This document shows positions 9,392-46,750 of a stretch of 64,000 nucleotides of DNA, piece after piece; the first letter of the stretch is position 1; the number at the start of each line of letters is the position of its first letter. The notes under the pieces are model-generated. The model was not told the DNA's origin and made no database searches. It saw only the letters and a list, made by a program, of their open reading frames with translations. The DNA is from Nitrospirota bacterium (lineage in GTDB: Bacteria; Nitrospirota; UBA9217). Where the stretch lies: assembly GCA_020052615.1 (NCBI GenBank), contig JAGVOT010000037.1, positions 1-64,000 on the forward strand. Direction: 5' to 3'. The translations under genes were made by a program, and so were the position numbers.

Positions 9392-9456
9392 GGCAATCCC
9401 TTAGGGAAACACCGATGAACACGGTTTCTTATCTCATATGCTTAAGATCGGTATTT

Positions 9457-9485
9457 AACCGTGTGCGGCGAAGCCGCCTGTGGTT
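9457..9485. other. intergenic hairpin between the two ligD genes
   Basis: GCGGC GAA GCCGC inner stem with outer AACC/GGTT pairing. It lies in the 117-bp gap between the polymerase and ligase genes and lacks a U-tract. It may affect mRNA processing or be a remnant repeat. Confidence 0.4.
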
Positions 9486-9508
9486 CATAAAGCCCTTTCG
9501 GTTTCGGT

Positions 9509-10414
9509 TCAAAGATGCGGCAGCTTCTGTTCTTTCACGAGCACCTCCCGGAATAGATCGCCCTTTGCTTCCGCCCTTCGAACTGCCTCCGAATGCACGA
9601 CCTGCAGGCTTTCCCGGTCGCCCTGTCCGTCCAGATCCTCCAGTTCCTTCCATTCAAGGGGAAAGGAAACGAATGGTTTTTCCCGGGCGCGCAGTGAATA
9701 AACGCAGATCATCGTTTTCGAGGCGTCGTTCTGGGACCAGTTGATAAATACCTTTCCTATCCGCTCGTTCTTCGCCATTTTTGAGGTCACCAGGTCCGGG
9801 TAATGTCTTTCCATGATCCCTGCGACGGCCCTCGAAAATGTCTTTGTGTCGTCAAAGGTCGTATCTTTGCTGTTCAGGGGTACAAGCACATGGAGCCCTT
9901 TTTGGCCCGAGGTCTTCACATAGCTTGCAAGTCCCATCTGAAACAGCAGATCGCGGAGGATCAGCGCGACCCGGGTGCACTCGGGAATGCCCGCCCCGTC
10001 GCCGGGATCCAGGTCGAAGACCAGGGAATCCGGTGTCTGCGGCGATCCAGCCCTGGACAGCGGCACATGAAGTTCGAGGGCCGCCAGGTTCCCCGCCCAG
10101 AGCAGCGTTTCCAGATCACTCACCACGCACATCATCATCGGCTCCCCGTTATGATGGACGACCTCCGCGGTGCTCACCCACGCCGGACGGTGAGCAGGAC
10201 AGCGCTTCTCGAAGAAAAACTCCTTTTCCACTCCCCCGGGATATCGCTTCAAGGTCAATGCCCGGCCCTGCAAATGGGGCAGGATGAACGGCGCGATCCT
10301 GCGGTAGTATTCGAGGATCGCGGCCTTCGTGAACCCGTAGGAGGGATAGAGGTCCTTTTCCAGGTTCGATAACGGGAGACTCCTCCCGGCTATTTCGACA
10401 TAGGTTCGGCTCAC
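9509..10414 (-). CDS. ligD: LigD-type primase/polymerase (stand-alone)
   Basis: A 301-residue archaeo-eukaryotic-primase-type polymerase of the NHEJ LigD family. Metal-binding catalytic pair Asp134/Asp136 in VFDLDPGD; KTSGQKGLHV (nucleotide-binding His) near residue 165-175; KVFINWSQND near 225. Starts with GTG overlapping the Ku stop codon (GTGA), with AAAGGAGGG upstream, so it is translationally coupled to Ku. It fills gaps and adds nucleotides at broken ends before ligation. The domain stands alone rather than fused to the ligase, a split arrangement seen in some bacteria. Confidence 0.92.
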   Translation of the reverse strand: MSRTYVEIAGRSLPLSNLEKDLYPSYGFTKAAILEYYRRIAPFILPHLQGRALTLKRYPGGVEKEFFFEKRCPAHRPAWVSTAEVVHHNGEPMMMCVVSDLETLLWAGNLAALELHVPLSRAGSPQTPDSLVFDLDPGDGAGIPECTRVALILRDLLFQMGLASYVKTSGQKGLHVLVPLNSKDTTFDDTKTFSRAVAGIMERHYPDLVTSKMAKNERIGKVFINWSQNDASKTMICVYSLRAREKPFVSFPLEWKELEDLDGQGDRESLQVVHSEAVRRAEAKGDLFREVLVKEQKLPHL

Positions 10415-11202
10415 CGGCCCTCCTTTACTTTCACTTTCCGCATGCTCTCCTCCAGCGCGGCCACCAGATCGGCTGGTCCTTCTTCCTCTTTTTCAGTCAT
10501 CGCCGGGGCATCCACCAGCGCCTTTTCCTTCACCTTTGCTTCCAGGAGGTCCATGATCTTCTTCCTGCGGCCATCGGCATATTTCCCGGGGTCAAAGTCC
10601 TTCATCATGTTCTCGATGCTTTTCTTCATCCGGGCAACCTCACCGGATTCGGCCGCTCCTTTTGCCGGCGACATCTCTCCGTCAGGAAGGACCTCATCGC
10701 TGTAATGGAGCGTCGTCAGGGCCAGCGCTCCGTCCTTGCTCGTGATCGCGACAAGATGCTCCCGTTCCGCCAGTACGAATTTTGCGAGACCCGCCTTCTT
10801 CGTCCGGGCCATCACCTCGGCCAGCAGCTGATAGGCCTTTTCGCCCCCTTTCGAGGGAACGAGATAATAGGGGTGATCGTAATAGATCGGGTCAACGTCC
10901 TTCATATCGATGAACTCGATGATCTCGATCGTCCGGCTCCGCTCGGGAGACACCGATTCCAGTTCCTCATCGGTCAGGGGAATATACTTTCCGGGCAGGA
11001 CCTCATATCCCCTGATGATCTCTTCGGGGGTCACCATCCTTTCATCAGCCGGGCAGTACATCTTTCTCTCAAGGCGGGAGTAATCCTTGCTGTGCAGCAG
11101 GTGAAAAGAGACATGGCCGGGCACGACCGCCGTGACCACTCGCACCGGTATCGCCACCAGGCTGAAACCGATCGTTCCGTTCCATATTCCCTGAACAGCC
11201 AT
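10411..11202 (-). CDS. ku: Ku protein (first of two)
   Basis: A 263-residue bacterial Ku homologue: WxGxIxFxLVxIPV N-terminal strand, HLLHSKDYSRL, CPADE, a YxxLPGKYIPL segment and EIIEFID central region, as usual for the homodimeric ring protein that binds double-strand DNA ends. The C-terminal tail (from about residue 230) is Lys/Glu-rich and could recruit the ligase. ATG with GGGAGG 7 nt upstream. Its stop overlaps the polymerase start, placing both in one operon. It differs clearly from the second Ku upstream. Confidence 0.93.
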   Translation of the reverse strand: MAVQGIWNGTIGFSLVAIPVRVVTAVVPGHVSFHLLHSKDYSRLERKMYCPADERMVTPEEIIRGYEVLPGKYIPLTDEELESVSPERSRTIEIIEFIDMKDVDPIYYDHPYYLVPSKGGEKAYQLLAEVMARTKKAGLAKFVLAEREHLVAITSKDGALALTTLHYSDEVLPDGEMSPAKGAAESGEVARMKKSIENMMKDFDPGKYADGRRKKIMDLLEAKVKEKALVDAPAMTEKEEEGPADLVAALEESMRKVKVKEGR

Positions 11203-11241
11203 ATTGGCCTCCCTTCTTGAGAGCTTAAAGCCTTTCTTTCT

Positions 11242-11340
11242 TTAACCGCAGAGCACGCGGAGATTTTCCTTATTTAAAGCACAGAAAGCGATGTATTAGA
11301 TCCATTCCCTCTCTGCATTCTCTGCGCTCTCCGCGGTAAA
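11242..11340. repeat. intergenic inverted-repeat element (CCGCAGAG family)
   Basis: Lies in the gap between the two ku genes. It has inverted ends related to TTTAACCGC...GCGGAG and its complement CTCT..CCGCGGTAAA. A related element with the same CCGCAGAG/CTCTGCGG ends occurs at 24921-24968. Probably a non-coding dispersed repeat. Confidence 0.55.
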
Positions 11341-11354
11341 ACGCCCTGTTCCTG

Positions 11355-12125
11355 TCAGGCAACCTTCTTCAGGCTAGCTTCGAGGACCTGCAGCAGGTTA
11401 TCGGGCTCCGTGGGTTTCAGGCGCCGGGGAGACAGGACCACGATGTTCTCTCCGCGGGCTTTCTTATCGATCATTGCCTGCAGCTTCCTCTGATGTTCGT
11501 TCTCGTACTTTCGCGGTTCGAATGGAGCCGTCAGTTTTTCGATCAGCTCGCTCCCGATAGCGAGCTCTTTATCCGTCAAGGGTGCGCTCTGCAGATCAAG
11601 CGATCTCACGGATACCACCTCATCGGCATATCGAAGCGTATTCAGCCGCAGGACCTTCCCGCTCGCCTGCAGTGCCCCGAAATAAGACCGTTTTCTCATG
11701 GTCCAGGTGCAGATGCCTGCAGCATCGAGCTCCTTCAATGCTTCGGCAAGGGGGGCATATCCTTTCGCCTGAACATCCGGCTCCAGGTAGTAGACGCGGT
11801 CGAGGAAGTGGGGATCTATCCGGCTGGTCTTCACGAATTCGTGGACCTCGATCCTCCGGTCGCTTTCGGGAACTGTTTGCTCAAGCTCCTCGGGATCGAG
11901 GAGGATGTATCTCCCTTCCCCGGCCTCGAACCCCCGGGACTGTTCATCCGCAGACACCGGCCGCTTTTCGAGCGCACAGATCAACTGCTGGCGTAACCGC
12001 GCAAGGTCAGGCTCGTGAAGAAGGTGGAACTGGATCCTCTCCTCCCTGACCGCGGTGTGCAGCTTTACGGGTATGTCCGTCTCTCCAAAATGGATGATCC
12101 CCTTCCATATCGTCCCGCTTGCCAT
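11355..12125 (-). CDS. ku: Ku protein (second of two, divergent paralogue)
   Basis: A 256-residue Ku homologue with the family landmarks IWKGIIHFG, HLLHEPDLARL, EGRYILLDPEEL, EVHEFV and VYYLEP. It has clearly diverged from the neighbour at 10411-11202: for example, the CPADE segment reads CALEKRPVSADE. The C-terminus ends at EASLKKVA without the longer Lys/Glu tail. ATG with GGGGGG upstream. The two genes are separated by a repeat. Two Ku copies may form heterodimers or be used under different conditions; which does so here cannot be told from sequence alone. Confidence 0.9.
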   Translation of the reverse strand: MASGTIWKGIIHFGETDIPVKLHTAVREERIQFHLLHEPDLARLRQQLICALEKRPVSADEQSRGFEAGEGRYILLDPEELEQTVPESDRRIEVHEFVKTSRIDPHFLDRVYYLEPDVQAKGYAPLAEALKELDAAGICTWTMRKRSYFGALQASGKVLRLNTLRYADEVVSVRSLDLQSAPLTDKELAIGSELIEKLTAPFEPRKYENEHQRKLQAMIDKKARGENIVVLSPRRLKPTEPDNLLQVLEASLKKVA

Positions 12126-34560: not shown

Positions 34561-35733
34561 TCAGTGATCGATTTCAACGCCGGCGGTCTGCTCACGTACG
34601 GTGATGGCGATCTTGTACAGGAACGTCAGAACCATAAAGCCGATGGCCCAGACGCCCAGGGTGATCATGGCCTCGGGCAGTGTCGGCCAGTAGGGATTCA
34701 CTTCCTCGAAGGGGTTCGGCACGAAACCGCCGATGATCAGGCCGAAACCCTTGTCGATCCAGAGCGAGATGAAGAGCATCACGCAGGCGATCGAAAGCAG
34801 GCCCTCTTTCCGCCGGATCGAAGGCACCCAGAGCATGACGAGCGACAGGACCGCGAAGATCGTCGAAGTCCACATGAGGGGAACGATCTCGGCGTGCCCA
34901 TCGAGCCCCTTGTAGAGATAGACGAAAGGATGCTGATGGCCCGGGATGCCGCTGTAGAAGGCCGTGAAGAACTCCAGGCCGAGCAGGAAGACGTTGGCAA
35001 ACATGGCGTACGCCACAATACGACTCACCGCCTGGATGACGTCCTTGCCGGCGTCGAACTTACTGACCTTGCGCACGATCAGCGCGAGGATGATCAGCAG
35101 CGCCGGGCCTCCGGCAAAGGCCGAGGCCAGGAACCGGGCAGCCATGACCGCGGTGAGCCAGAAATGGCGGCCCGGGATGCCGGAGTACAGGAACGCCGTG
35201 ACCGTATGGATGCTGATGGCCCAGGGAATCGAAAGATAGATCCAGGGCTTGATCCACTTCGGCGGAGGCACGCCCTTCCGGTCTGACCCGAGGGTCACCC
35301 AGCCTACCAGGGCATTGATGAAGAGATAGCCCGACAGTACGACGGAATCCCAGAACATGACCGAGCCCGGCGTGGGATGGAGGAGCACATTCATGATGCG
35401 CATCGGCTGGCCCATGTCCACGAAGATGAACAAGATGCACATGGTCACGGCCGAAATGGCCAGAAATTCGCCCAGGATCACGATCTTCCCGAACTTTTTG
35501 AAGTCATGGAGATAGTACGGTATCACAAGCATGACGGCGGAGGCGGCCACGCCGACCAGGAACGTGAACTGGCCGATGTACAGGCCCCAGGACACGTCGC
35601 GGTGCAGACCGGTCAACCCCAGGCCTTCATTGAACTGCCGGATGTACCAGTACGTACCGATCAGTGCAAAGATGCCGAGAAAACCCACCCATGCCCAGTA
35701 TTTTTTGCTCCCTTCCAGTGCTTTCTCAAGCAT
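34561..35733 (-). CDS. dsrP: DsrP, NrfD-type membrane subunit
   Basis: A 390-residue polytopic membrane protein (about ten helices) of the NrfD/PsrC family, the quinone-interacting subunit of the DsrMKJOP complex. The start at 35733 is set by GGAGGTGG just upstream and overlaps the dsrO end by 8 bp. Typical landmarks include WGLYIGQFTFLVGVAASAVMLVIPYY and GIPGRHFWLTAVMAARFLASAFAGG. It links the membrane quinone pool to the periplasmic DsrJ/DsrO pair. Last gene of the operon, followed by a terminator. Confidence 0.93.
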   Translation of the reverse strand: MLEKALEGSKKYWAWVGFLGIFALIGTYWYIRQFNEGLGLTGLHRDVSWGLYIGQFTFLVGVAASAVMLVIPYYLHDFKKFGKIVILGEFLAISAVTMCILFIFVDMGQPMRIMNVLLHPTPGSVMFWDSVVLSGYLFINALVGWVTLGSDRKGVPPPKWIKPWIYLSIPWAISIHTVTAFLYSGIPGRHFWLTAVMAARFLASAFAGGPALLIILALIVRKVSKFDAGKDVIQAVSRIVAYAMFANVFLLGLEFFTAFYSGIPGHQHPFVYLYKGLDGHAEIVPLMWTSTIFAVLSLVMLWVPSIRRKEGLLSIACVMLFISLWIDKGFGLIIGGFVPNPFEEVNPYWPTLPEAMITLGVWAIGFMVLTFLYKIAITVREQTAGVEIDH

Positions 35734-36574
35734 GATCACCACCTCCGATCAGATAATAGATCGCCGGCCCCGTGCCCAGTTCAGGCTTCCGACGGATCGT
35801 GAGCTTGTTCGATACGATCTGCCGGATCTCCGAGCTCGGGTCATCGAGGTCTCCGAATATCAGGGCCCCTTTCGGCGCGGCTTCGACGCAGGCGGGCATC
35901 TTTCCGACGGCAAGACGCTCGGTGCAGAAAGTACATTTCTCCACCACGCCCTTGGTGCGGGTGGGATACTCCTTGTTCACCTTCCCGCCCTTCGCGGGAT
36001 CGAGGTTTGCCGCGCGGCGAGGGTCGATCCAGTTGAAGCTCCGGGCTCCGTACGGGCAGGCCGCCATGCAGAACCGGCAGCCGATGCAGCGGTGCATATC
36101 CTGCATCGTGATGCCCGTCGCCAGCTTGTAGGTCGCCTTGGTCGGACAGACCCGCACGCAGGCCGGGTTCGTGCAATGGTTGCAGAGCACCATGAACGGC
36201 ATGTCCTTGATATGCTCGCTCTGGTACTTTCGCTCCTCCATTCCCGGAAACGCCTTCTCGTACGTGGTATTCCAGATCCACTTGATCTCGAACTTCTTGT
36301 CAACGGTCCCGTCAGGCTTCCGGAAGTCAGGCACGTTGTGGATCGTGTGGCAGGCGTTGATGGTCTTCGTGAAATCCTCTTCGGTCTTGAACCTGGTCAT
36401 GTCCACAACCATGGCCCAGCGTTTTGCCGTAAGGGCCTCCTTGTTCCGGTCCATCTGGTCGGGCCGGAGGGCGGGCTGCCATGTCGGATGCGTGGCCGAT
36501 GCCACCGAGGCGCCGAATCCCAGGATGGAGGAGATGCCGGCTACCTTGAGGAATTTTCTCCTGTCCATGCTCAT
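35726..36574 (-). CDS. dsrO: DsrO, periplasmic ferredoxin-like subunit
   Basis: A 282-residue protein with a Tat-type signal peptide (MDRRKFLKVAG). Cys clusters: CNHCTNPACVRVCP, CIGCRFCMAACPYGAR and CTFCTERLAVGKMPACVEA, giving several [4Fe-4S] clusters as in DsrO/HybA proteins. The start at 36574 overlaps the dsrJ stop as ATGA, with AAGGAGG upstream. An upstream in-frame extension would lie inside dsrJ. Works in the periplasm with DsrJ and DsrP. Confidence 0.94.
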   Translation of the reverse strand: MSMDRRKFLKVAGISSILGFGASVASATHPTWQPALRPDQMDRNKEALTAKRWAMVVDMTRFKTEEDFTKTINACHTIHNVPDFRKPDGTVDKKFEIKWIWNTTYEKAFPGMEERKYQSEHIKDMPFMVLCNHCTNPACVRVCPTKATYKLATGITMQDMHRCIGCRFCMAACPYGARSFNWIDPRRAANLDPAKGGKVNKEYPTRTKGVVEKCTFCTERLAVGKMPACVEAAPKGALIFGDLDDPSSEIRQIVSNKLTIRRKPELGTGPAIYYLIGGGDHA

Positions 36575-36996
36575 GACTGTGTCTCCTCCTTCTCGACCGG
36601 CTGGATGTGGCAGTCCCAGCAGAACGGCTTGACCGCCATGTAATTGTGGCATTCATCGCAGAACTTCTTCTTGTTCGAGTGGCACTGCATGCAGCCGTTC
36701 TGCAGGCTCATGTTCCAGCGCTTCCCGGTCGAGCTCAGGTACCCGCGGTTGTCGTCGCGCACCACGGCGTCGCGCCAGTTGTTGATAAGCACCATGTGCT
36801 CGCCGCGCATGTATGCTTTAGGCTCGACACATTCCTTCTTGCCGTTCACCTTTTCATATTCCAGAATGGCCGGCGTATCGGTCTTGATATCGAGTTTCTT
36901 GTTCGCTTTCCCGAAGTTGTTGTAGAACGGGAACAGCGCAAGGGCCAGGAAAATCACGATGCCCAGGAACACCGGACCTTTGTTGTAGATCTTCAT
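36571..36996 (-). CDS. dsrJ: DsrJ, triheme cytochrome c
   Basis: A 141-residue membrane-anchored protein: one helix at residues 8-25, then three CXXCH motifs (CMQCH, CDECH, CWDCH) in the last 45 residues. The three hemes are characteristic of DsrJ, which faces the periplasm. Its start overlaps the dsrK stop by one base (TGATG), so translation is coupled. Tail ends about 12 residues after the third heme. Confidence 0.96.
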   Translation of the reverse strand: MKIYNKGPVFLGIVIFLALALFPFYNNFGKANKKLDIKTDTPAILEYEKVNGKKECVEPKAYMRGEHMVLINNWRDAVVRDDNRGYLSSTGKRWNMSLQNGCMQCHSNKKKFCDECHNYMAVKPFCWDCHIQPVEKEETQS

Positions 36997-38615
36997 CAGG
37001 CTTTTTCCTCCTTCGCTTCGATTCCCGGAAGAGGTTCGCCGCGCAGATCGGTCGTTCTCTCCTTCTCGCCCTTCATGATCAAGGCGTTCGCAACCAGTTC
37101 ATGGAGCCCGCAGACGCCCACACTGGGGACCCAGTATTCCATCAGGGCCTTGAGCGTTGCCCGGTCTATGGCGCAGACGTTGGCGAGCATATTCACGCCG
37201 TAATGGTCGGCAACGAACTTGACCGCGTTCGCTCGGGGGAACCCGCCCTTCATCCTGAGATCCATGTCTTCCGAGGCATTCAAACCCGTGCCGCTGCCGC
37301 AGCAGAAGGTTTTTTCACGGATCGTGTCTTCCGGCATCTCGACGAAGTTATTCACTACGTTCTTGAGCACGTACCGTGGTTCCTCGAGCATGCCCATGCC
37401 GCGCGCTACGTTACAGGAATCATGCCAGGTGACCTTGAGGTGGTCGTTCCGCTTTGGGTCAAGCTTGAGCTTGTTGTTCTTGATCAGGTCAGCGGTGAAT
37501 TCGGCGACATGGACCATTTTCATGGATTTCGCGTTCTCGAAGACCGTGCCGGTGATCGGCGACTTGGGGACTTCGAGGAAATCTGCCGGACCGTTCCAGG
37601 TGTCCATGTACTGCGAAAGTACCCTCCACATGTGGCCGCATTCTCCGCCGAGGATCCACTTCACGCCGAGCCGCTTGGCCTCGGCGTAGATCTTGGAATT
37701 GAGCCGCTTTGCCATCTCGTTCGAGGTGAAGAAGCCGAAATTGCCGCCTTCCGAGGCGTAGGTGCTCCAGGTGTAATCGAGGCCGAGTTCCTCGAAAAGC
37801 ATCATGTAGCCCATGGCGGTGTAGGTGCCCGGGTCGGCGAACAGGTCGCCCGAAGGCGTTACGAACAGGATCTCTGCGCCCTTCCGGTTGAAGGTCGGCT
37901 TGATCCGCTTGCCGGTGACCGTCTCGATGTCATCCAACATGTACTCGAGGTTGCCGACGATCGTATGGGGCTCGAGGCCCAGGTGGTTGCCCTTCATGTA
38001 GCAGTTCGAGACCGGCCCGGCGATCCACTCGATGTTCAATCCGAGGAGATTGAGCAGTTCCCGTCCGATCATGGTGATCTCCGCCTGGTCGATGCCGTAG
38101 GGGCAGAAGACGGAGCAGCGGCGGCATTCGGTGCACTGATAGAAGTAGTACCACCATTCCTTCAGCACATCCACGGTCAGTTCCCGCGCGCCGGCCATCC
38201 TACCGAAGATCTTGCCGGCCGTCGTGAACTCCTTCCGGTAGACTGAACGGATGAGCTCTGCCCTGAGCACCGGCATATTCTTCGGGTCGCCTGTACCGAT
38301 GAAAAAATGGCACTTGTCTGCGCAGGCACCGCAGCGCACACAGATGTCCATGAACAGTCGGAAGGACCGGTACTTCTTGAGCCGGTCCGCGATCCCCTCG
38401 AGGAGGATCTCCTTCCAGTTCTCCGGAAGTTTCCAGTCAGCATCTGCAGGACGCCACTCCCTGGGATTCGGGAATCCAACGATCTCGAGGCTCTTCGGCT
38501 TCGATCCGTGGCAGAACATGCCTTCCTTGAAGACCACGGGCGTGTCCATCCAGTCGGTTTTCGGCGGAGTCAAGTCTATCTTCGAAAGCTCTTCTGGTTT
38601 CGGAAGTTTAGCCAT
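36996..38615 (-). CDS. dsrK: DsrK, HdrD-like catalytic iron-sulfur subunit
   Basis: A 539-residue cytoplasmic subunit related to heterodisulfide reductase HdrD. Two ferredoxin clusters (CVRCGACADKC and CTECRRCSVFCP, residues about 95-190), then CCG-type Cys motifs in the C-terminal part (CGHMW at about 340; CCGSGTGLNASED at about 440). Proposed to act on the DsrC trisulfide or related thiols. Begins 2 bp after the dsrM stop; ends in TGATG with dsrJ. Confidence 0.95.
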   Translation of the reverse strand: MAKLPKPEELSKIDLTPPKTDWMDTPVVFKEGMFCHGSKPKSLEIVGFPNPREWRPADADWKLPENWKEILLEGIADRLKKYRSFRLFMDICVRCGACADKCHFFIGTGDPKNMPVLRAELIRSVYRKEFTTAGKIFGRMAGARELTVDVLKEWWYYFYQCTECRRCSVFCPYGIDQAEITMIGRELLNLLGLNIEWIAGPVSNCYMKGNHLGLEPHTIVGNLEYMLDDIETVTGKRIKPTFNRKGAEILFVTPSGDLFADPGTYTAMGYMMLFEELGLDYTWSTYASEGGNFGFFTSNEMAKRLNSKIYAEAKRLGVKWILGGECGHMWRVLSQYMDTWNGPADFLEVPKSPITGTVFENAKSMKMVHVAEFTADLIKNNKLKLDPKRNDHLKVTWHDSCNVARGMGMLEEPRYVLKNVVNNFVEMPEDTIREKTFCCGSGTGLNASEDMDLRMKGGFPRANAVKFVADHYGVNMLANVCAIDRATLKALMEYWVPSVGVCGLHELVANALIMKGEKERTTDLRGEPLPGIEAKEEKA

Positions 38616-38617
38616 GT

Positions 38618-39613
38618 CTACTCCTTTTCTACCGGCAGGCCGGCGCCTTTCATTTTTTCCCTGAAGTCATTCTCGTATTCCTCATAGGTGTGAACATGAA
38701 CCGGATAATTCCAGGGATTGACATGTCTTTTCATACGGCTGTTGTTCGCCAGGTTCCTCGTGGGGCTCATGAAGACGCCGGCCATGTGCACCAGTTTGCT
38801 CATGGGAAAGTATACGAACAGCACGGAGAGGAGAAACAGGTGCGTGAAGAACATGGGGCTGATCGTCTCGGCGACCGTCGGGTTGAAACTGATGAGCCCC
38901 ATGGCAAGGACCTTTACGCTCACGATGTCCGTCTTCGTGAAATAGCGCATCAGGACGCCGGTAACGGCGATGCCGAGTATCAGGAAGAGCGGAAAGTAGT
39001 CTGCGATCAGCGAGATGTACTTGACCTGCGGAATGCCGATGCGTCGGATGAACAGGTAGGTCACCGACGCCAGAATGACCGCATCGGTCATGTAGAACAG
39101 TGGTGCGCCGATCTGGAGGAAACTGTCGAGACCCTCGATCATCTGGATCGCCGCGGGAACCTGTTCGATGAAGAACCGCATGTGACGGACCAGGATGATG
39201 AGGAACGACCAGTGGAAGGCAAGACCCGCGGCCCAAAGCCACTTGGCCTCGCCGTAGGCCACCTGTGTTCCGTCACCCACCTGCTGGGTCTTGAGATTCC
39301 GGAAGAGAGACCGGAAGAACAGCACCTCCAGCGCCATTCGCGCGATGACGCCCAGACCGGTGGAAGGGCTTTCAATGGTGCTGTGCTTGATCCAGGGCAG
39401 CGATTTCTGCTGTCCCGTGGTCGTGGGGATGCGGAACGGCACGGGAGAGCTTGCCCATTTCAGGATGCGAACGACCATCCCGACGACAAAGATGATGAAT
39501 GCGGCATACGGGATGACCACGCCAAAAAGGAACCGCATGGCCGGTACAGACGCACCTGCATAGGCGATGAGCGCCAGCAGGAGTACCGCGATTAAGGATA
39601 CCAGAGCTTTCAT
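38618..39613 (-). CDS. dsrM: DsrM, membrane cytochrome b-type subunit
   Basis: A 331-residue NarI-like membrane protein with about five or six helices and conserved His residues typical of heme b ligands (for example in FHWSFLIILVRHMRF). It passes electrons between quinones and DsrK. First of the MKJOP run, located downstream of the RsbRD_N-like gene with about 50 bp spacing. Start ATG at 39613. Confidence 0.94.
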   Translation of the reverse strand: MKALVSLIAVLLLALIAYAGASVPAMRFLFGVVIPYAAFIIFVVGMVVRILKWASSPVPFRIPTTTGQQKSLPWIKHSTIESPSTGLGVIARMALEVLFFRSLFRNLKTQQVGDGTQVAYGEAKWLWAAGLAFHWSFLIILVRHMRFFIEQVPAAIQMIEGLDSFLQIGAPLFYMTDAVILASVTYLFIRRIGIPQVKYISLIADYFPLFLILGIAVTGVLMRYFTKTDIVSVKVLAMGLISFNPTVAETISPMFFTHLFLLSVLFVYFPMSKLVHMAGVFMSPTRNLANNSRMKRHVNPWNYPVHVHTYEEYENDFREKMKGAGLPVEKE

Positions 39614-39664: not shown

Positions 39665-40177
39665 CTATTCCTGGTTTTCCGTGGTGAGTTTTGCCTTCTG
39701 CAGCAGCCGGAAGGTCATGCTCCGCGCTTCTTTCGCTTTGATATCATAGATCGTTTCCCGGCATTGCATATAGAGATCGAAGGCGAACAGGGCAAGGTCA
39801 TCGACGGAGGACTCGAAGAACACAAGTTCTCCTGCCAACGCCGGTTCCTGCGCCTTCTCTCCCAGTTTGTTCCGCACGACGGTCTTCAGTTGGAGGATGA
39901 ACCGGAGCGCCTCGGAAGGGGCGAAGTCCTGTACAGCACGGATCCGGACGATGCCATCCAGAAAACGGGACGTGTCCGATGGCAGCATGCCCTTCAGGAG
40001 GCCGTCGAACAGGCCTTCAAGCCCCTGTTGGGTGTTGAAGCCAACGGGGTTGGTGAAGGGCGCGCCCTGCCGCCGCAGCGGACCGCGCGTCTCTTCCTTA
40101 TAGGTCCCGACCACCGTCTCGAACCACTGGTTGACGATCGCAGAACGGTTTTCCTGCAGCAGGTTCTTCAGGTTCAT
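39665..40177 (-). CDS. RsbRD_N-like protein in the dsr locus
   Basis: A 170-residue all-helical protein resembling the RsbRD/RsbT co-antagonist N-terminal domain: MNLKNLLQENRSAIVNQWFETVVGTY, TNPVGFNTQQGLEGLFDGLL, then FILQLKTVVRNKL. In stressosome proteins this domain senses signals. Related genes precede dsrM in several sulfate reducers. No STAS or kinase domain is attached. ATG at 40177 preferred over a TTG two codons earlier. Lies between a hairpin and dsrM; it could regulate or stabilise the complex. Confidence 0.65.
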   Translation of the reverse strand: MNLKNLLQENRSAIVNQWFETVVGTYKEETRGPLRRQGAPFTNPVGFNTQQGLEGLFDGLLKGMLPSDTSRFLDGIVRIRAVQDFAPSEALRFILQLKTVVRNKLGEKAQEPALAGELVFFESSVDDLALFAFDLYMQCRETIYDIKAKEARSMTFRLLQKAKLTTENQE

Positions 40178-40212
40178 GGTCAATTCTTATTCCCGTGATG
40201 ATCAGCAGAAAG

Positions 40213-40240
40213 TCCGCCCTGCGCAACAGCGCAGGGCGGA
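40213..40240 (-). terminator. strong hairpin in the dsr locus
   Basis: Perfect 12-bp stem TCCGCCCTGCGC/GCGCAGGGCGGA around a 4-nt loop, between the DsrF-like gene and the RsbRD_N-like gene. On the minus strand it is followed by CTTTCTG, so it may be a partial terminator or an mRNA stabiliser. Confidence 0.7.
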
Positions 40241-40248
40241 TCATAAGT

Positions 40249-40665
40249 TTAGAAAAACAGCAAATGTTTGACCGACTCCATTTCCTTCTGGATCTCGGCG
40301 AACGAAACAAATTTCGTCGAAATGTCCGCTCCACCCATATCCTCGGCATCGGAGACTATCTGGTCCTCTTTGAGGCCAAGGCGCTCCATATCCTCTTTGC
40401 AGACCCAAATAGGAACATCGGTCATAAGACAGCCTTTGATGTGACTTTCAGTGCTCGTCACGCCATAGGTTTTCATCGCCTGCTGGCCCTTGACAGCGTT
40501 CAGCACACCGTCGCCGACGAATGCGACGGTAGGAACAACTGAATCGCCCTCATCCATGTAGATCTCGGCGGTCTGGCTTGCCAGTGCATGGGTGAGCGCA
40601 AGGCGGGGGTTCTCGCTCTTGTACGGCGGTCTCTGAACAACAAACAATAATTTGACTGCACCCAT
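40249..40665 (-). CDS. DsrE/DsrF (TusD/TusC)-like sulfur relay protein
   Basis: A 138-residue protein of the DsrE family. N-terminal KLLFVVQRPPYKSE resembles the DsrF/TusC start; VCKEDMERLGL (Cys89) resembles the active-site Cys segment of the family, and a second Cys lies at 79. Overlaps the preceding DsrE gene by one base. Together with the DsrE and DsrH neighbours it would form a three-component sulfurtransferase. Which of DsrE or DsrF it is cannot be settled without alignment; length is slightly above DsrF. Confidence 0.7.
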   Translation of the reverse strand: MGAVKLLFVVQRPPYKSENPRLALTHALASQTAEIYMDEGDSVVPTVAFVGDGVLNAVKGQQAMKTYGVTSTESHIKGCLMTDVPIWVCKEDMERLGLKEDQIVSDAEDMGGADISTKFVSFAEIQKEMESVKHLLFF

Positions 40666-41024
40666 TACTCACCTCCTATGTGGAGAAGCCGGTCGGTCTT
40701 GACGGTCTTCGCCAGGTACCAGTCCATGCTGGCGCGCTTCATGCCTTCGGGCACATCTTCCTTGTGGTAGCCACGGGCCTCGGCGCATGCCTCGCACACC
40801 GTGATTTCCATACCCTTGGACATCAGTTCCTTCATCCGCTTTTCCAGGTGAGAGTAATCTTTGAAAGCTTTCTGTCCTTTTTTTGCCATCATCACGGCGT
40901 TCCCGGAAAGCCACATGTTGACCTTGTGGCCCTTCGCGATCGCGGCCTCGGCAAGCTTGAACGAAAAATCAAGCGACATCGAGCCAACGAGGGACGGGAA
41001 AACTCCAAGCGTCAGTTCAGCCAT
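40665..41024 (-). CDS. dsrE: DsrE (TusD)-like sulfurtransferase
   Basis: A 119-residue DsrE-family protein: SFKLAEAAIAKGHKVNMWLSGNAVM, then TVCEACAEARGYHKEDV with Cys77 at the position expected for the DsrE active-site cysteine and Cys80 nearby. Such proteins pass persulfide sulfur to DsrC. One-base overlap with the DsrF-like gene (TGATG type) indicates coupled translation. A hairpin sits upstream at about 41053-41075 on the minus strand. Confidence 0.78.
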   Translation of the reverse strand: MAELTLGVFPSLVGSMSLDFSFKLAEAAIAKGHKVNMWLSGNAVMMAKKGQKAFKDYSHLEKRMKELMSKGMEITVCEACAEARGYHKEDVPEGMKRASMDWYLAKTVKTDRLLHIGGE

Positions 41025-41094
41025 GGTATCCTCCTTGCAGATTTGAGCGCTACGCCATCGTCGCAGCGCGAAAAAATGGACCCCTGAATTAAGG

Positions 41095-41394
41095 TTACAA
41101 CCACGCGGTCTTCTCGTACTCGTTCGTAATCAAGTCCACGATGTCCCCGTAGCTCACCAGCTTGACCTTCGGGTTCACGTTCGCCGCGGTATATCCCCGC
41201 GTCTCGAGATCGTCCGTGAGAGCGTAGAACGTCGCTCCCGCCTTGGACAGGACGGGCGAATCCTTGCCGCCTTCTTTGATCACTGCGTGGTAAATACCGT
41301 TTTCGACCAGGATGACGCCCAGCTTTTCCGCCTTCAACCGTTCGTAGGTATCTTCGGTCCTTCGTAGATCGCTTAGAAACACGGCCAGTTTCAT
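41095..41394 (-). CDS. dsrH: DsrH (TusB)-like protein lacking Cys
   Basis: A 99-residue protein. The second half (ATFYALTDDLETRGY...VKLVSYGDIVDLITNEYEKTAWL) is typical of DsrH/TusB. There is no cysteine in the entire sequence, whereas characterised sulfur-oxidiser DsrH carries a conserved Cys near residue 20; it may therefore be structural only. First of the H-E-F trio, before which lies a terminator. Operon order H-E-F differs from the E-F-H order of purple sulfur bacteria. Confidence 0.72.
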   Translation of the reverse strand: MKLAVFLSDLRRTEDTYERLKAEKLGVILVENGIYHAVIKEGGKDSPVLSKAGATFYALTDDLETRGYTAANVNPKVKLVSYGDIVDLITNEYEKTAWL

Positions 41395-41438
41395 CAGATC
41401 ACCTCCCTGTGGTATTCAGTTCAAACGGCTAAAAAAAG

Positions 41439-41466
41439 AGGGGATAATTTATTTCAACTATCCCCT
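41439..41466 (-). terminator. rho-independent terminator after the ferredoxin gene
   Basis: Read on the minus strand: an 8-bp stem (TATCCCCT arm at 41459-41466, paired with 41439-41446), 12-nt loop, followed by a run of seven Ts. Separates the ferredoxin gene from the dsrHEF-like trio. Confidence 0.8.
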
Positions 41467-41495
41467 TTCGGTATGGAACCTTTATCTTTCCATCA

Positions 41496-41681
41496 CTAGA
41501 GTTCCTGCACCGTGATGGCTTGCTGAGGGCAATTCTCAACGCACGTCAGGCAGTTGATGCACTCTGACATATTGACCGGCTCGGCCTTGCCGCCCTCAAG
41601 CTTGAAGACCTGCTGGGGGCAGACATTGACGCAGGTGCCGTCGCCGTCGCACTTGTTCTTGTCAACCGTTACCATGATCAT
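41496..41681 (-). CDS. small ferredoxin with one Asp-substituted cluster site
   Basis: A 61-residue ferredoxin. The second site is a full CxxCxxCxxxCP (CINCLTCVENCP). The first reads CDGDGTCVNVCP: Asp replaces the second Cys, as in ferredoxins that hold a [3Fe-4S] or Asp-ligated [4Fe-4S] cluster. Predicted to be a cytoplasmic electron carrier, maybe serving DsrAB. AAGGAGG is about 10 nt upstream. It lies between dsrC and dsrH with its own flanking terminators. Confidence 0.85.
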   Translation of the reverse strand: MIMVTVDKNKCDGDGTCVNVCPQQVFKLEGGKAEPVNMSECINCLTCVENCPQQAITVQEL

Positions 41682-41772
41682 GCCGCAACTTCCTCCTTAG
41701 CGCAATCTTCTGCAGGTGTCCTGTATCTCCGCGGTTCCTCGGCGCGAGCCCCCTTGGACAAACAAGACCGCA

Positions 41773-41799
41773 CGTATCCGGGGACAGCCCCCGAATACG
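41773..41799 (-). terminator. hairpin after dsrC
   Basis: CGTATTCGGGG/CCCCGGATACG (11-bp stem with one wobble, loop of five) on the minus strand, followed by a weak T-rich stretch (TCTTGTTTG). Located about 33 bp after dsrC, before the ferredoxin gene; likely partial terminator. Confidence 0.65.
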
Positions 41800-41831
41800 C
41801 GCTGAGCCTGATAATTTGCCAACGACCGGTC

Positions 41832-42167
41832 CTAGACGCAGCCGGTCGGCTTAGGAAGACCGGCGATTTTGCAGGCCTGCTTGGCCGGGCCGCCCGGATA
41901 GAGTTCATAGAGATATTTGGTGTTGCCCTTGTCGGGACCAAGCTTCTTGCCGATCTCTTTCACCAGGATCTTGATCATCGGCGCGATCTGGTACTGCTTG
42001 TAATAGTCGCGCAGGAAGTTCACAACCTCCCAATGCTGGTCGGTCATCTCGATCCCTTCCACCTCGGCGAAATACTTGGCAACATCCATGTTCCAGTCGT
42101 CCAGGTTCGCCAAAAAGCCATCCTCATCAACTTCTATCGTTTTACCTGCTACTGTGATCGTTCCCAT
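41832..42167 (-). CDS. dsrC: DsrC
   Basis: A 111-residue DsrC. The C-terminal arm carries both redox cysteines, Cys99 (QACKIAGL) and Cys110 as the penultimate residue, 10 residues apart, as needed for the trisulfide mechanism with DsrAB. Also WNMDVAKYFAEVEGIEMTDQHWEVVNFLRDYY as in authentic DsrC. Its own candidate promoter lies at 42245-42273 and AAAGGGGA precedes the ATG. It carries sulfur from DsrAB to the DsrMKJOP complex or from DsrEFH. Confidence 0.96.
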   Translation of the reverse strand: MGTITVAGKTIEVDEDGFLANLDDWNMDVAKYFAEVEGIEMTDQHWEVVNFLRDYYKQYQIAPMIKILVKEIGKKLGPDKGNTKYLYELYPGGPAKQACKIAGLPKPTGCV

Positions 42168-42244
42168 GTTCTGTGTCCCCTTTCTTAAATTGAGCGGACG
42201 CTTCGAAGAGCGCCTCTGCGTGATTAGGTTCCCGTGCTTGCGGC

Positions 42245-42273
42245 ACTGTACCTGTTGATCTGATAGTTGTCGG
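42245..42273 (-). promoter_or_regulatory. candidate promoter for dsrC
   Basis: On the minus strand CCGACA (-35 position, 42268-42273) and TACAGT (-10, 42245-42250) are separated by exactly 17 bp, each matching consensus at 4 of 6 positions. The gap 42168-42365 between dsrC and the zinc-ribbon gene holds no gene. Confidence 0.35.
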
Positions 42274-42365
42274 CCGTGTTGCGCCTGAGCATCACCTCCG
42301 TCATGGATGCATCAGGAGCTCAACGGCCATGTTATGACTAAGGATGCCATCACATAAGCTGACGG

Positions 42366-42725
42366 TCATCGTGCTGTTTTTTCACTGGTCTTCATGACGT
42401 AAAGCCGGCCGTATCGGTCCATATATCCCCTGCTAATGCCCGTTGAACTGTGCGTTCTCCAGTCATAGCTGAGAATAGCGTCCTGGTAGTCTACCTCAGG
42501 AATAAGGTCCCCCACACTTTTTCCCAGGGCATCTGCTGCCCAATTGAGTGCCTGAGCCATCATGGATCCAACATCCTTGCCCGTGGGGTCCACAAGGTAG
42601 AGCGCACCGCAGAAGCAGATCCCACCCGAACCTCGTTCTGTTCCGCTGATCGCAATTTCTGCGGGCCTTGGCAGATCAGCTCCGCAGAACGGACACCGTG
42701 GCGCACTTTTCTCCTGTGTCCTCAT
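42366..42725 (-). CDS. zinc-ribbon protein associated with dsrN
   Basis: A 119-residue protein with a CPFCGADLP zinc-ribbon-like motif near residue 12 and a second CFC motif near residue 38, so about three or four Cys ligands. The rest is helical and ends in a basic stretch. Overlaps the dsrN stop by 4 bp (ATGA). Found beside dsrN in the locus; function not recognised. Confidence 0.6.
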   Translation of the reverse strand: MRTQEKSAPRCPFCGADLPRPAEIAISGTERGSGGICFCGALYLVDPTGKDVGSMMAQALNWAADALGKSVGDLIPEVDYQDAILSYDWRTHSSTGISRGYMDRYGRLYVMKTSEKTAR

Positions 42726-44119
42726 CGTCGGACACCCGGCTTGCTGGTCATCCGATATTCCCGGGCCTTTTTCACGATGCCCTGGGCCCAGAGAGGAGAA
42801 CCCTGCGCGTGAAGATGGGTGTAGGTCGCCAGCACGTTCTTATATACGATCCCTTCATGGAATCCATCTATCCCGTGACCACGCTCCATGGAAAAGGCCA
42901 GACCGTCCAGATCCTTAATGTTCACGATGCGGGAGTAATGGAATTCATGTCCGCGCAGCCTGCACGACATTTCAAAGAACGGATTCGGACCGGTTACTAC
43001 CAATTGTGTATAGCCATGGGCCTGCGGCTTCTTTTCCAGGATAAAATCCGCCTGAAGGACCGACGCCATCGAATATGTCGTATCGCCCACCCGAAGGCTT
43101 CTGCCGAGATAGATCAGGCCACCACACTCTGCGTAGACCGGAAGTCCCTTCTCAACCGCCGCCCGAAGCGAATCTGCAAAGGATACGTTCCCGGCAAGTT
43201 CTGCCGCCTGGGTCTCGGGAAATCCCCCGCCGATATACAGTGCGTCGATCGGCGGCAGTTCCAGGTCCTGCAATGCATTGATCTCCCGGATGACCGCGCC
43301 CTGTTGTTCAAGGGCCTCGATATTATCCGGATAATAGAACTGAAATGCCTTGTCTCTTATGACACCGACCGTCGGTCGGTCTGCCTCGACCGCAGGTACC
43401 GCAGGTCCTTGCACGGACTTCAGGAGACCAGCGTCACCGGCAATCCGCCACAAGGCCACAAGATCGAGATATTTCTCCGCGACTGACGCTGAAGCGGTGA
43501 TCGCCTTGTCGACATCCGGGTGTTCGTGAAAGGGCATGAGCCCCATGTGCCGTTCAGGGAACTCGTCATGCCTCAGTCTCGGAACCGCACCGACAACGGG
43601 TATCCCGCTGCTCTGTTCGATCGCCTTCCGGATGACCGATTCGTGTCTTCCCGGCGATACATTGTTCAGAATGATCCCCCGGACCGCGACCGATGGATCA
43701 TACAGCTTGCTGCCGAGAACGACCGCCGCTACAGTGGCGGATGATTTTGTGCAGTCAACGATCAGAACCACCGGCGACCCGATCACCTTTGCGAGCCGGG
43801 CGGTGCTGTAGGTCCCTGACTCATCCACGCCGTCATAGAGGCCGCGGTTCCCCTCTATCACGGCGGCATCCATTCCGTTCGCGTGCCGGGCAAACGAACG
43901 AAGGATGCTCTCCTCCTCCATCAGGAAGAGGTCGAGATTATAGCAGGGCCTGCCCGCGGCGGCCCCGAGCCAGCCGGCATCGATGAAATCGGGGCCTTTT
44001 TTGAATGAAGCGATCCGCTTCCCCTGGTTTCGCCAGGCTGCGATGATTCCGAGCGAGAGGGTCGTTTTTCCGAGCCCTCCCCGGACGGCTGAAATTACCA
44101 GCCGAGGGATGTTCTGCAT
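42722..44119 (-). CDS. dsrN: DsrN, siroheme amidase (CbiA/CobB-like)
   Basis: A 465-residue amidotransferase of the cobyrinate a,c-diamide synthase family. N-terminal P-loop SAVRGGLGKTTLSLGI; EGNRGLYDGVDESGTYSTARLAKVIGSPVVLIVDC; C-terminal glutaminase domain with catalytic Cys in YAECGGLIYLG (about residue 345) and GHEFHYSR. In dsr loci DsrN is thought to amidate siroheme for DsrAB. Start 44119 is chosen as the P-loop begins shortly after; it follows dsrD by 7 bp. Confidence 0.93.
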   Translation of the reverse strand: MQNIPRLVISAVRGGLGKTTLSLGIIAAWRNQGKRIASFKKGPDFIDAGWLGAAAGRPCYNLDLFLMEEESILRSFARHANGMDAAVIEGNRGLYDGVDESGTYSTARLAKVIGSPVVLIVDCTKSSATVAAVVLGSKLYDPSVAVRGIILNNVSPGRHESVIRKAIEQSSGIPVVGAVPRLRHDEFPERHMGLMPFHEHPDVDKAITASASVAEKYLDLVALWRIAGDAGLLKSVQGPAVPAVEADRPTVGVIRDKAFQFYYPDNIEALEQQGAVIREINALQDLELPPIDALYIGGGFPETQAAELAGNVSFADSLRAAVEKGLPVYAECGGLIYLGRSLRVGDTTYSMASVLQADFILEKKPQAHGYTQLVVTGPNPFFEMSCRLRGHEFHYSRIVNIKDLDGLAFSMERGHGIDGFHEGIVYKNVLATYTHLHAQGSPLWAQGIVKKAREYRMTSKPGVRR

Positions 44120-44126
44120 TGTACTA

Positions 44127-44363
44127 TTACGACTGTGGATTGGCCGAGCCTTCGGTGTGCGGGATCTCGATGAAACTGCCGCCGAAGTAAGAATACACCA
44201 GTTTGCCGCCGTCAACGAGTTCGCGGATCGCGGCCTTGACCTCGTCCCGCGAAGCGCCCTCGGCCTCCATGGCCTTGGTGATATCGCCCGCTTTCATCTT
44301 CTTTTTTCCCTGGTTCTTCTCAACCAGTTCATATACCTTCTTGGTAAGTTCCTGGGCGTCCAT
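44127..44363 (-). CDS. dsrD: DsrD
   Basis: A 78-residue winged-helix protein: MDAQELTKKVYELVEKN, then EVKAAIRELVDGGKLVYSYFGGSFIEIP, matching DsrD. Known to accelerate sulfite reduction by DsrAB and largely restricted to reductive-type loci. The start at 44363 has AGGGGGAT 6 nt upstream. A strong terminator lies between dsrB and this gene. Confidence 0.93.
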   Translation of the reverse strand: MDAQELTKKVYELVEKNQGKKKMKAGDITKAMEAEGASRDEVKAAIRELVDGGKLVYSYFGGSFIEIPHTEGSANPQS

Positions 44364-44455: not shown

Positions 44456-45529
44456 TTATTCCCACTTGAAGGTGGGGGTCATCCTGAACGTGTCGCGTGC
44501 GAAGGTGAAATCATCAATATGCTGGTAGGTGAACGGAATACCGGTAACCTTGAAGAACCGCTCCCAGCCGATGCGCTCGATCCACTCGCCCATGCGTTCA
44601 TGCTTCTTCGCATCCTTGGCATATACCTCCACGAGGTGCTTTACGGCCTTTACGACCTCGGGCCAGCGCGGCGGATTGTTCGGAAGGAACGGAATGACCA
44701 GCTTGGACATGCGGGCCGGGCCGCGGGCGTTGGACACCTTGCCGCCAACGTAGATGGAGATCCCGTCGCCCGCACCATCTGCGATCGGCAGCGACGGGCA
44801 CATGGTGTAGCAGTTTCCGCAGTACATGCAGCGCTCGGCCTTGATCTTGACCGTTTTGGTCGCCGGGTTCGGGCTGATGGCGCCCGTGGGGCACGAAGCA
44901 ATGGTCGTGGGGATCTCGCACTGGTTCGCGAGGGTCGCCTCGTTCACCTTGGGGGGCAGGCGGTGGATGCCGAGGATGGCGATATCGGAGCAATGCACGG
45001 CACCGCACATGTTCAGGCAGCAGGCCAGCGCAATGCGGACGCGTGCCGGCAGGCTCTTCGTGGTGAAGTACTCATGGAGCTCGTCCATGACCGCCTTCAC
45101 CACGCCCGATGCGTCCGTGGCCGGCGTATGACAATGGATCCAGCCCTGGGTATGCACGACGTTGCTGATTCCGTAGCCGATGCCGCCTACGAGATGTCCG
45201 CGCTTCTTCAGGTCGGCGACCAGGGCGTCCATCTGGTCCTTCGCCGGAAAGAACTCTATGTTGTGGCGGGTCGTCCATCGGAGATAGCCGCCGCTGTACT
45301 TCTCGGAGATATCGCACATCTCTCGGATATAATCGGTGCTCACGAGGCGGGGCGTTGCGATACGCACGGTGTAGAGCTCGTCCCCGGTCTCGGAGACATG
45401 CTTCATCGTACCTTTGCTGAGCTGCTCATGATACTTCCACTTCCCGTAGTTCTTGGCGATAACGGGAGGCAGGAATTTTTTATAATCAGGTGAACCAAGG
45501 TCCGTTATTCTCTTTGGTTTGTCAGCCAT
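44456..45529 (-). CDS. dsrB: dissimilatory sulfite reductase beta subunit
   Basis: A 357-residue DsrB. Siroheme/[4Fe-4S] region [16 protein letters not shown] near residue 180 and a ferredoxin domain [16 protein letters not shown] near 235. Also [14 protein letters not shown] around residue 140. It pairs with DsrA as alpha2beta2 and shares the catalytic siroheme site. Starts 42 bp after dsrA, with TAGGAGG upstream. Confidence 0.96.
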
Positions 45530-45571: not shown

Positions 45572-46750
45572 TTACTGCACTTCACCCGGCGCCCAGAACA
45601 CGTACGGGTTGGTCCTTGGTTGTTTCACCATCTGCGGCACCGGCGGGAGACCGGTCGATTCAAGCATGGACCTCATGCCCATGCGGTCGACGAGTTCGCC
45701 GATGCGCTCGCGGTTCTTTCCGTGCTCATCCCACCACTCCCAGAGCTTGCGGATGAGGTCTTCCAGATTGTCGTAGGGGGCCTCGAGCTTCATGAAGGGA
45801 ACGATGACCCAGCTCATGAGCGCGCCGGTCACGATCGGGGCCTTGCCGCCGAGCATGATGGTTGCCCCCTGCTCTTTTCCGGGACGGAGGGCCTTCGGCA
45901 TCTGGTTGATGCAATGCATGCAGCGGTTGCAGTCCTTGTCATTGATCTTCAAGGCGCCACCGTCGAAGCTCATGCATTTTGTCGGGCACATGCCAACGAT
46001 CTCTTCCGCGATGTTCATCTTGGAAGCGTAGTTCTTCACCTCGGCCTGGTCGATGCGGATGTTGTCGCGCCAGGTGCCGATGATGGACATATCGGCGCGG
46101 GCGACCGCAGCGGTGCAGTCATTGGCACAGCCGGAGACCTTGATCTTGAACTTGTAGGGGAAAGCGGGACGATGGAGTTCGTCCTGGAACTTATGGGTGA
46201 GGGTGTGGCAGATGTCCATTGTATCGATGTTCGAGAACTCGCAGCGGGACTTGCCTACGCAGGAGCTGGGGGTGCGAAGGCAGGAGCCGGAGCCGCCGAG
46301 GTCCCAGCCTTTGGCCGTGATCTCCGCGAAGATTGGCTCAAGCTTGTCGGTCTGGGTGCCGAGCCATACCATGTCGCCGGTGGAGCCATGGAGATTGGTG
46401 AGGCCGCTGCCGTATTTGTCCCAGATGTCGCACAGCTCTTTCATTGCTTTTGAGGTATAGTAGAAGCCTGACGGCGGATTGATACGCACCGTATGGAAGT
46501 GCGCAACGCCGGGGAATTCTTCGGGCAGATCACAGTAACGTCCGATCACGCCGCCGCCGTAGCCGAGAACGCCCACGATGCCGCCGTGCTTCCAGTGGGT
46601 CACTTTGTCCCGGTACGATCTCTCAAGGATACCGAGCAGGTCATGCGCGGTGTTGCTCTTCTTTGCGGCCGTCTTGATCTCTTTTACAAAACTCGGCCAC
46701 GCTCCTTTTTCCAGGTCGTCAAGCATTGGTGTCTTAACATCCTTGCTCAT
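45572..46750 (-). CDS. dsrA: dissimilatory sulfite reductase alpha subunit
   Basis: A 392-residue DsrA. Siroheme cluster Cys motifs: GSGSCLRTPSSCVGKSRCEF (about residues 158-178) and SGCANDC (about 220). Ferredoxin domain: MCPTKC with CNRCMHCINQMPKAL (about 285-300). Reduces sulfite (or runs in reverse) with DsrC as sulfur acceptor. ATG with AAGGAGG 8 nt upstream; first gene of the dsr locus. Length is within the family's range, at the shorter end. Confidence 0.96.
   Translation of the reverse strand: MSKDVKTPMLDDLEKGAWPSFVKEIKTAAKKSNTAHDLLGILERSYRDKVTHWKHGGIVGVLGYGGGVIGRYCDLPEEFPGVAHFHTVRINPPSGFYYTSKAMKELCDIWDKYGSGLTNLHGSTGDMVWLGTQTDKLEPIFAEITAKGWDLGGSGSCLRTPSSCVGKSRCEFSNIDTMDICHTLTHKFQDELHRPAFPYKFKIKVSGCANDCTAAVARADMSIIGTWRDNIRIDQAEVKNYASKMNIAEEIVGMCPTKCMSFDGGALKINDKDCNRCMHCINQMPKALRPGKEQGATIMLGGKAPIVTGALMSWVIVPFMKLEAPYDNLEDLIRKLWEWWDEHGKNRERIGELVDRMGMRSMLESTGLPPVPQMVKQPRTNPYVFWAPGEVQ

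Follow-up and report, generated by a model that had tools for sequence, protein, structure and literature searches.

A YTD-type sulfur relay probably built into a reductive dsr operon of the Nitrospirota

Introduction

Can one operon carry both dsrD, which belongs to reductive-type dsr loci, and the DsrEFH relay of sulfur oxidisers? The question is raised by a stretch of DNA of 64,000 nucleotides (the window; positions 1 to 64,000 of contig JAGVOT010000037.1, GenBank assembly GCA_020052615.1), which is contig C33 of a Nitrospirota metagenome-assembled genome of 3.99 Mb in 135 contigs (97.8% complete, 0.95% contamination). A minus-strand locus in it runs from 46750 to 34561 in the order dsrA-B-D-N-x-C-ferredoxin-H-E-F-RsbRD_N-M-K-J-O-P, and the coordinates of its genes given below are all on that strand. 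The original prediction placed dsrD, dsrN, H-, E- and F-like genes and a full MKJOP in one locus, and every gene that it named was found there. A reductive-type locus with both DsrD and a relay of the DsrE/F/H type was upheld by a DsrA tree and by conserved synteny, but the premise that this relay is the DsrEFH of oxidisers, and so a mark of sulfur oxidation, had to be given up. The mixture is real and conserved. It is not paradoxical, since the trio differs from the version that oxidisers have, and the locus most likely holds a known type of relay in an unusual gene order. The reading preferred here is that a complete reductive sulfate pathway has its dsr operon in this locus, and that a relay of the YTD type has probably been built into that operon, carrying sulfur to DsrC, with DsrAB perhaps reversible according to conditions.

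Identity of the H-E-F trio

The three genes were each recognised by a Pfam model: the dsrH-like gene (41095..41394) by DsrH (42.3 bits, cut-off 24.4), and the dsrE-like (40665..41024) and dsrF-like (40249..40665) genes by DsrE (55.0 and 44.7 bits, cut-off 22.7). An AlphaFold model and orthologues for DsrH, fold and invariant cysteines for DsrE, and alignment for DsrF agree with these assignments. The NCBIfam equivalog models all scored below cut-off (TusD/DsrE 28 against 89 bits, TusC/DsrF 34 against 94, TusB/DsrH 46 against 49), for which reason the trio is regarded as divergent. Canonical type I DsrEFH was considered and rejected, DsrE being 21.6% identical to that of Allochromatium vinosum and the TIGR03010-3012 scores under cut-off; nor does the window genome show the oxidative DsrAB with DsrL alongside that characterise type I. 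TusBCD was also rejected, on the equivalog scores, on a tree in which the window DsrE falls outside the TusD/type I DsrE group and on the partner, which is DsrC and not TusE.

Orthologues were surveyed in 396 Nitrospirota genomes, a DsrH orthologue being defined by E < 1e-20. They were found in 144, of which 133 also had dsrA (odds ratio 56, the genomes not being independent), and several of the 11 trio genomes that lack dsrA are incomplete. With families f3, f4, f6 and f23 left out, the trio was present in 133 of 155 dsrA-bearing genomes. In a further scan of named genomes with DsrH, the named matches were Nitrospirota. In other Nitrospirota families the orthologous trio stood in the order H-E-F-tusA at all 11 loci examined, followed at one (L065) by a YeeE-like gene. 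The gene order had been noted as H-E-F against the E-F-H of oxidisers; this holds, and H-E-F is the standard order of the cassette across the phylum. In the cassettes of other families tusA adjoins the trio, and at the window locus tusA and yeeE both lie on another contig. As judged from sequence, the trio is most likely orthologous to the H-E-F-tusA cassette, that is, to the YTD cluster or DsrEFH type II.

Among the relatives of the window genome the same operon order was found at eight further loci that are complete and at two more that are cut by contig ends. This family, which includes GWC2_57_9, GWC2_57_13 and Hainich aquifer bins among others, is presumably the GTDB class UBA9217. Since at least eight further genomes of the family repeat the H-E-F order, it is not a matter of chance. 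What sets this family apart is that its trio belongs to the dsr operon itself, where it stands between dsrC/ferredoxin and dsrM; families f35 and f40 instead have the trio directly upstream of dsrA. The genome has its own tusA gene (C41:977-1216), whose product is 73% identical to cassette TusA, directly before a gene for a YeeE/TsuA-like transporter, and four further genomes of the family show the same pairing. The relay thus appears to be complete but split, with tusA-yeeE on a different contig from the trio.

The fold of all three subunits is that of the DsrE/F/H kind, as judged from models of DsrE and DsrH and from Pfam for DsrF. The AlphaFold model of DsrE (pLDDT 85) matches YchN and the DsrE chain 2hy5_A with TM-scores of 0.83 and 0.80, and that of DsrH (pLDDT 91.6) has A. 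vinosum DsrH, 2hy5_C, as its best match (TM-score 0.75). Cys77 of DsrE aligns with Cys78 of A. vinosum DsrE, the active cysteine of type I, and is a candidate for the sulfur-carrying residue. Neither Cys77 nor Cys80 varies among 17 orthologues; in type I the second of the two is replaced by alanine. Alignment showed Cys89 of the DsrF-like subunit to be invariant, and the DsrH-like subunit has no cysteine.

Direction of DsrAB and the sulfate pathway

Both sulfite reductase subunits are well above their cut-offs (dsrA, 45572..46750, TIGR02064 561.9 bits against 392.85; dsrB, 44456..45529, TIGR02066 492 bits against 341.5). A tree limited to DsrA was built with D. vulgaris, D. norvegicum and A. 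fulgidus as solved reductive enzymes, and with few oxidative references, namely the rDsrA of a SUP05 phage (Lau218) and six oxidative DsrA from within the phylum. The window DsrA fell on the reductive side, next to families f16, f20, f26 and others, and the oxidative DsrA were split off with 100/100 support, which answers for DsrA the check on the DsrAB branch that had been proposed. Identity was 58-59% to the three solved enzymes and 43% to the SUP05-phage rDsrA. The outcome named beforehand as fatal to the prediction, a clearly reductive DsrAB with a trio related to TusBCD, was therefore found in its first half; the trio is not TusBCD-like, and the great majority of the genomes that have it carry dsrA as well. 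A scan of viral contigs with DsrA gave no match. Elsewhere in the phylum, two genomes of family f6 (G018 and G027; loci L140, L141, L144 and L145) each have two different dsrAB copies, both on the oxidative side of the tree.

The search for sat, aprAB, qmoABC and dsrL that had been suggested found all but the last. The first three form one block, sat-aprBA-qmoABC, on contig C5 of the same genome, in which aprB, QmoA and QmoB were named from sequence appearance, an HdrA-like match and position beside aprA and qmoC. With dsrABC and dsrMKJOP this makes a complete set for dissimilatory sulfate reduction in one genome. DsrC (41832..42167, TIGR03342 167 bits, cut-off 53.5) is a sulfur carrier with both C-terminal cysteines; it ends in ACKIAGLPKPTGCV and retains the Cys-X10-Cys pair. 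The membrane complex genes are each above their NCBIfam cut-off: dsrM (38618..39613, NF038037 530.9 bits against 300), dsrK (36996..38615, NF045796 737.6 against 400), dsrJ (36571..36996, NF038038 165.2 against 100), dsrO (35726..36577, NF045797 277.2 against 200) and dsrP (34561..35742, NF045798 478.3 against 350). Subunits of aa3- and cbb3-type oxidases are also encoded in the genome; they make an oxidative use of the pathway possible without showing such use.

DsrD

The weakest assignment of the locus is the predicted DsrD, a divergent winged-helix activator of DsrAB (44127..44363), which scores 19.1 bits against the PF08679 gathering score of 24.2. The product is a small winged-helix-like protein encoded directly after dsrB and homologous to accepted members. 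A homologue, mostly of 68-82 residues, occupies that place in every locus of the window's family (f1) that covers the site and in loci of many other Nitrospirota families, and in some of those families homologues exceed the Pfam cut-off. The alignment comprised the window protein and 14 Nitrospirota homologues, one of which (L124, from genome G106) is above it. A PDB profile search returned other winged-helix or unrelated chains and not D. vulgaris DsrD, so that the identity rests on the chain of homologues together with position. The Pfam model may simply miss this lineage.

Only 17 of the 396 genomes reach the Pfam DsrD cut-off. Most of these belong to family f23, which has a canonical dsrD without H-E-F and a DsrA that clusters with Desulfovibrio; the others have a divergent DsrD together with a divergent DsrE. 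A survey published in 2024 reported dsrFH without dsrE, and no dsrD, for most Thermodesulfovibrionia, the exception being family SM23-35 (printed SM25-35), with dsrD present and dsrEFH absent (PMC11033732). The distribution found here suggests, in our own interpretation, that the absences reported for dsrD and dsrE are an effect of model cut-offs and not true absences. In Nitrospirota both DsrD and this DsrE escape the usual profile cut-offs, which makes marker surveys of reductive against oxidative metabolism unreliable in the phylum.

Further DsrEFH-like sets with selenocysteine

Two further DsrE-DsrF-DsrH-like sets were observed in the same genome, each beside an SQR-like flavoprotein and both on the minus strand, at about 47696-48740 of C36 (L013 7697-8741) and about 78508-79558 of C113 (L012 11509-12559). 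In both dsrE genes an in-frame TGA stands precisely where the active-site cysteine would be encoded, giving U77-x-x-C80, with a hairpin like a selenocysteine insertion sequence 17 nt after the TGA, and selB is present in the genome. Because of the in-frame TGA and their different clade these two clusters were dropped as candidates for the YTD cluster. The best NCBIfam match of the flavoprotein was type III SQR, selenoprotein subtype, below cut-off. Relatives were matched in 67 of 296 Nitrospirota genomes, and almost all of them have the in-frame TGA as well. DsrE-like selenoproteins with UxxC have been known since 2005 (PMC1088965); the context of a selenocysteine DsrE in a trio beside SQR was not found in the literature searched.

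Proposed mechanism and alternatives

A route from YeeE to TusA, to Cys77 of DsrE and on to DsrC is inferred by analogy with the characterised type II complex. YeeE would import sulfane sulfur, TusA would receive it, and Cys77 of DsrE would take it from TusA and hand it to DsrC. Under favourable conditions the sulfur bound to DsrC would be oxidised by DsrAB in reverse, during sulfide or sulfur oxidation or disproportionation, with the oxidases as possible sinks; otherwise the same operon would reduce sulfate or sulfite. The carrier role, sulfur to DsrC, is the firmer half of this explanation and the oxidative direction the weaker half. Of the interpretations of the locus, use in both directions, disproportionation and sulfane-sulfur transfer are all live hypotheses, and what has fallen is the trio as a marker of classic oxidation.

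Several points weigh against the preferred reading of a reductive operon with a built-in relay. A hairpin with a T-run, terminator- or attenuator-like, lies upstream of dsrH on the minus strand (41439..41466) and a second hairpin after dsrF (40213-40240), so that H-E-F could be expressed separately from the rest of the operon; both are no more than suggestive, as such sites are not commoner here than in shuffled sequence. No dsrL was recognised in the genome, where the DsrL-like protein of family f4, used as query, matched only NfnB/GltA-like and other flavoproteins, although cable bacteria and D. alkaliphilus use such a set and dsrL is not reported for them either. Finally, the type II identity is based on cassette synteny, fold, cysteine and co-occurrence, and not on direct comparison with published type II sequences.

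A bolder extension of that reading can be put forward tentatively, with no great expectation that it is right. The type II relay wired into the dsr operon would be a dedicated sulfane-sulfur port on DsrC, through which one reductive-type DsrAB-DsrMKJOP would run both ways, and the selenocysteine DsrEFH sets beside the SQR-like flavoprotein would feed this port in sulfidic, micro-oxic settings.

The best-surviving rival, to which we give about one chance in five, has the relay feeding sulfane sulfur (S0, polysulfide or thiosulfate) reductively, with no reversal of DsrAB: DsrE would load DsrC, and DsrMKJOP would reduce the persulfide to sulfide, by-passing DsrAB. The position of the trio between dsrC and dsrMKJOP, the YeeE/TusA uptake module in the genome and the uniformly reductive markers on the DsrAB side all suit it, and the one-way transfer from DsrEFH to DsrC seen in vitro is compatible with either fate of the sulfur (PMC13293266). 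The in vitro work was nevertheless read as oxidation, and among the organisms with such sets cable bacteria and D. alkaliphilus are sulfide oxidisers (PMC13293266).

It is very improbable that the trio is a tRNA-thiolation relay of the TusBCD type that came to lie in a dsr operon by chance. The superfamily and fold are shared, as matches to the 2d1p chains show, but DsrE lies outside the TusD/type I group, its score with the TusD model is far under cut-off, the presence of the trio tracks dsrA across the phylum, and the partner is a true DsrC with two C-terminal cysteines where TusE has one. Slightly less credible again is a classic sulfur oxidiser with oxidative DsrAB and DsrEFH: E/F/H-type genes and terminal oxidases are indeed present, but DsrA is on the reductive side, a DsrD-like gene is there and dsrL was not recognised, and the trio is not type I, while a type I set does occur, beside a DsrL-like gene, in family f4 of this phylum. 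That binning or assembly joined genes of a reducer to those of an oxidiser, as might be suspected of a 135-contig metagenome-assembled genome, is next to impossible, since at least eight further genomes, each assembled separately, have the same gene order on a single contig.

Other genes of the locus and window

The remaining genes of the locus include dsrN (42722..44122), which by position and by matches to cobB/CobB models (419-427 bits) encodes a CobB-like amidotransferase with a predicted role in sirohaem amidation. Between it and dsrC lies a gene for a small zinc-ribbon-like protein with CPFC and CFCG motifs (42366..42725), which matched no curated family above cut-off. This gene is in the same place across the window's family, and weaker homologues occur near dsr genes in other Nitrospirota families. 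A 2x[4Fe-4S] ferredoxin gene (41496..41681, Pfam Fer4 family) is kept across the window's family except in genome G003. An RsbRD_N-domain protein (39665..40183, PF14361 70 bits) is encoded directly before dsrM, as in most Nitrospirota dsr loci seen. Far from the operon the window has a bacterial set for non-homologous end joining (7811-12125, minus strand), with a LigD-type ATP-dependent ligase (7811-9391), Ku (10411-11202) and a second Ku-like open reading frame judged by eye (11355-12125).

Comparison with known systems

DsrEFH type II, or the YTD cluster, was described by Plum-Jensen et al., in a paper of May 2026, as a typical feature of microbes whose DsrAB is reductive (PMC13293266); the YTD cluster was also treated by Umezawa et al. 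2020, as cited there. The literature from 2020 to 2026 ties the cassette to such organisms, with Nitrospirota as the main holders of type II subtype 1, and in vitro sulfur passes from TusA to Cys67 of DsrE and then to DsrC (PMC13293266). With its relay inside the dsr operon, and with that relay tracking dsrA across the phylum, the present locus gives independent support to the coupling proposed in 2026 between reductive-type Dsr systems and a relay for sulfane sulfur, and it offers a concrete operon for asking whether sulfate reducers also oxidise or disproportionate sulfur.

The window trio resembles type II in its three subunits of the DsrE/F/H fold, in less than 25% identity to type I DsrE, in one conserved DsrE cysteine, in orthologues beside tusA (with yeeE in one locus) and in co-occurrence with reductive DsrAB. 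It differs in lying inside the dsr operon, with tusA and yeeE elsewhere, and may differ in the second invariant cysteine of its DsrE, which forms C77-x-x-C80. Type I, as in A. vinosum (PDB 2HY5), shares the fold, the subunit set, the position of the active-site cysteine and the dsrC neighbourhood; the low DsrE identity, the order of the genes, the lack of a recognised dsrL, the reductive DsrAB and a DsrH without cysteine set the window trio apart from it. TusBCD of E. coli (PDB 2D1P) is alike in fold and in the kind of heterotrimer, but differs in sequence group, in its partner TusE as opposed to DsrC, and in phyletic pattern, that of the window trio being tied to dsrA.

Genomes of mixed character, with dsrD, dsrEFH and dsrL together, have been described from 'transitionary phyla', among which Nitrospirota are named (PMC11406059). 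The window genome is like them in having DsrD-type and DsrEFH-type genes in one genome, but those have DsrL, whereas the window genome has neither a type I-like DsrEFH nor a recognised DsrL-like gene. A different Nitrospirota family, f4 (L115, L116 and L117), was observed to combine dsrA-dsrB and type I E-F-H with a homologue of dsrD and a DsrL-like gene at one locus; its type I DsrE matches 2hy5_A at E = 5e-33, which served as an internal control, and its DsrA is on the reductive side of the tree. With its type I-like DsrEFH and DsrL-like gene it is f4 that fits the 'transitionary' description (PMC11406059).

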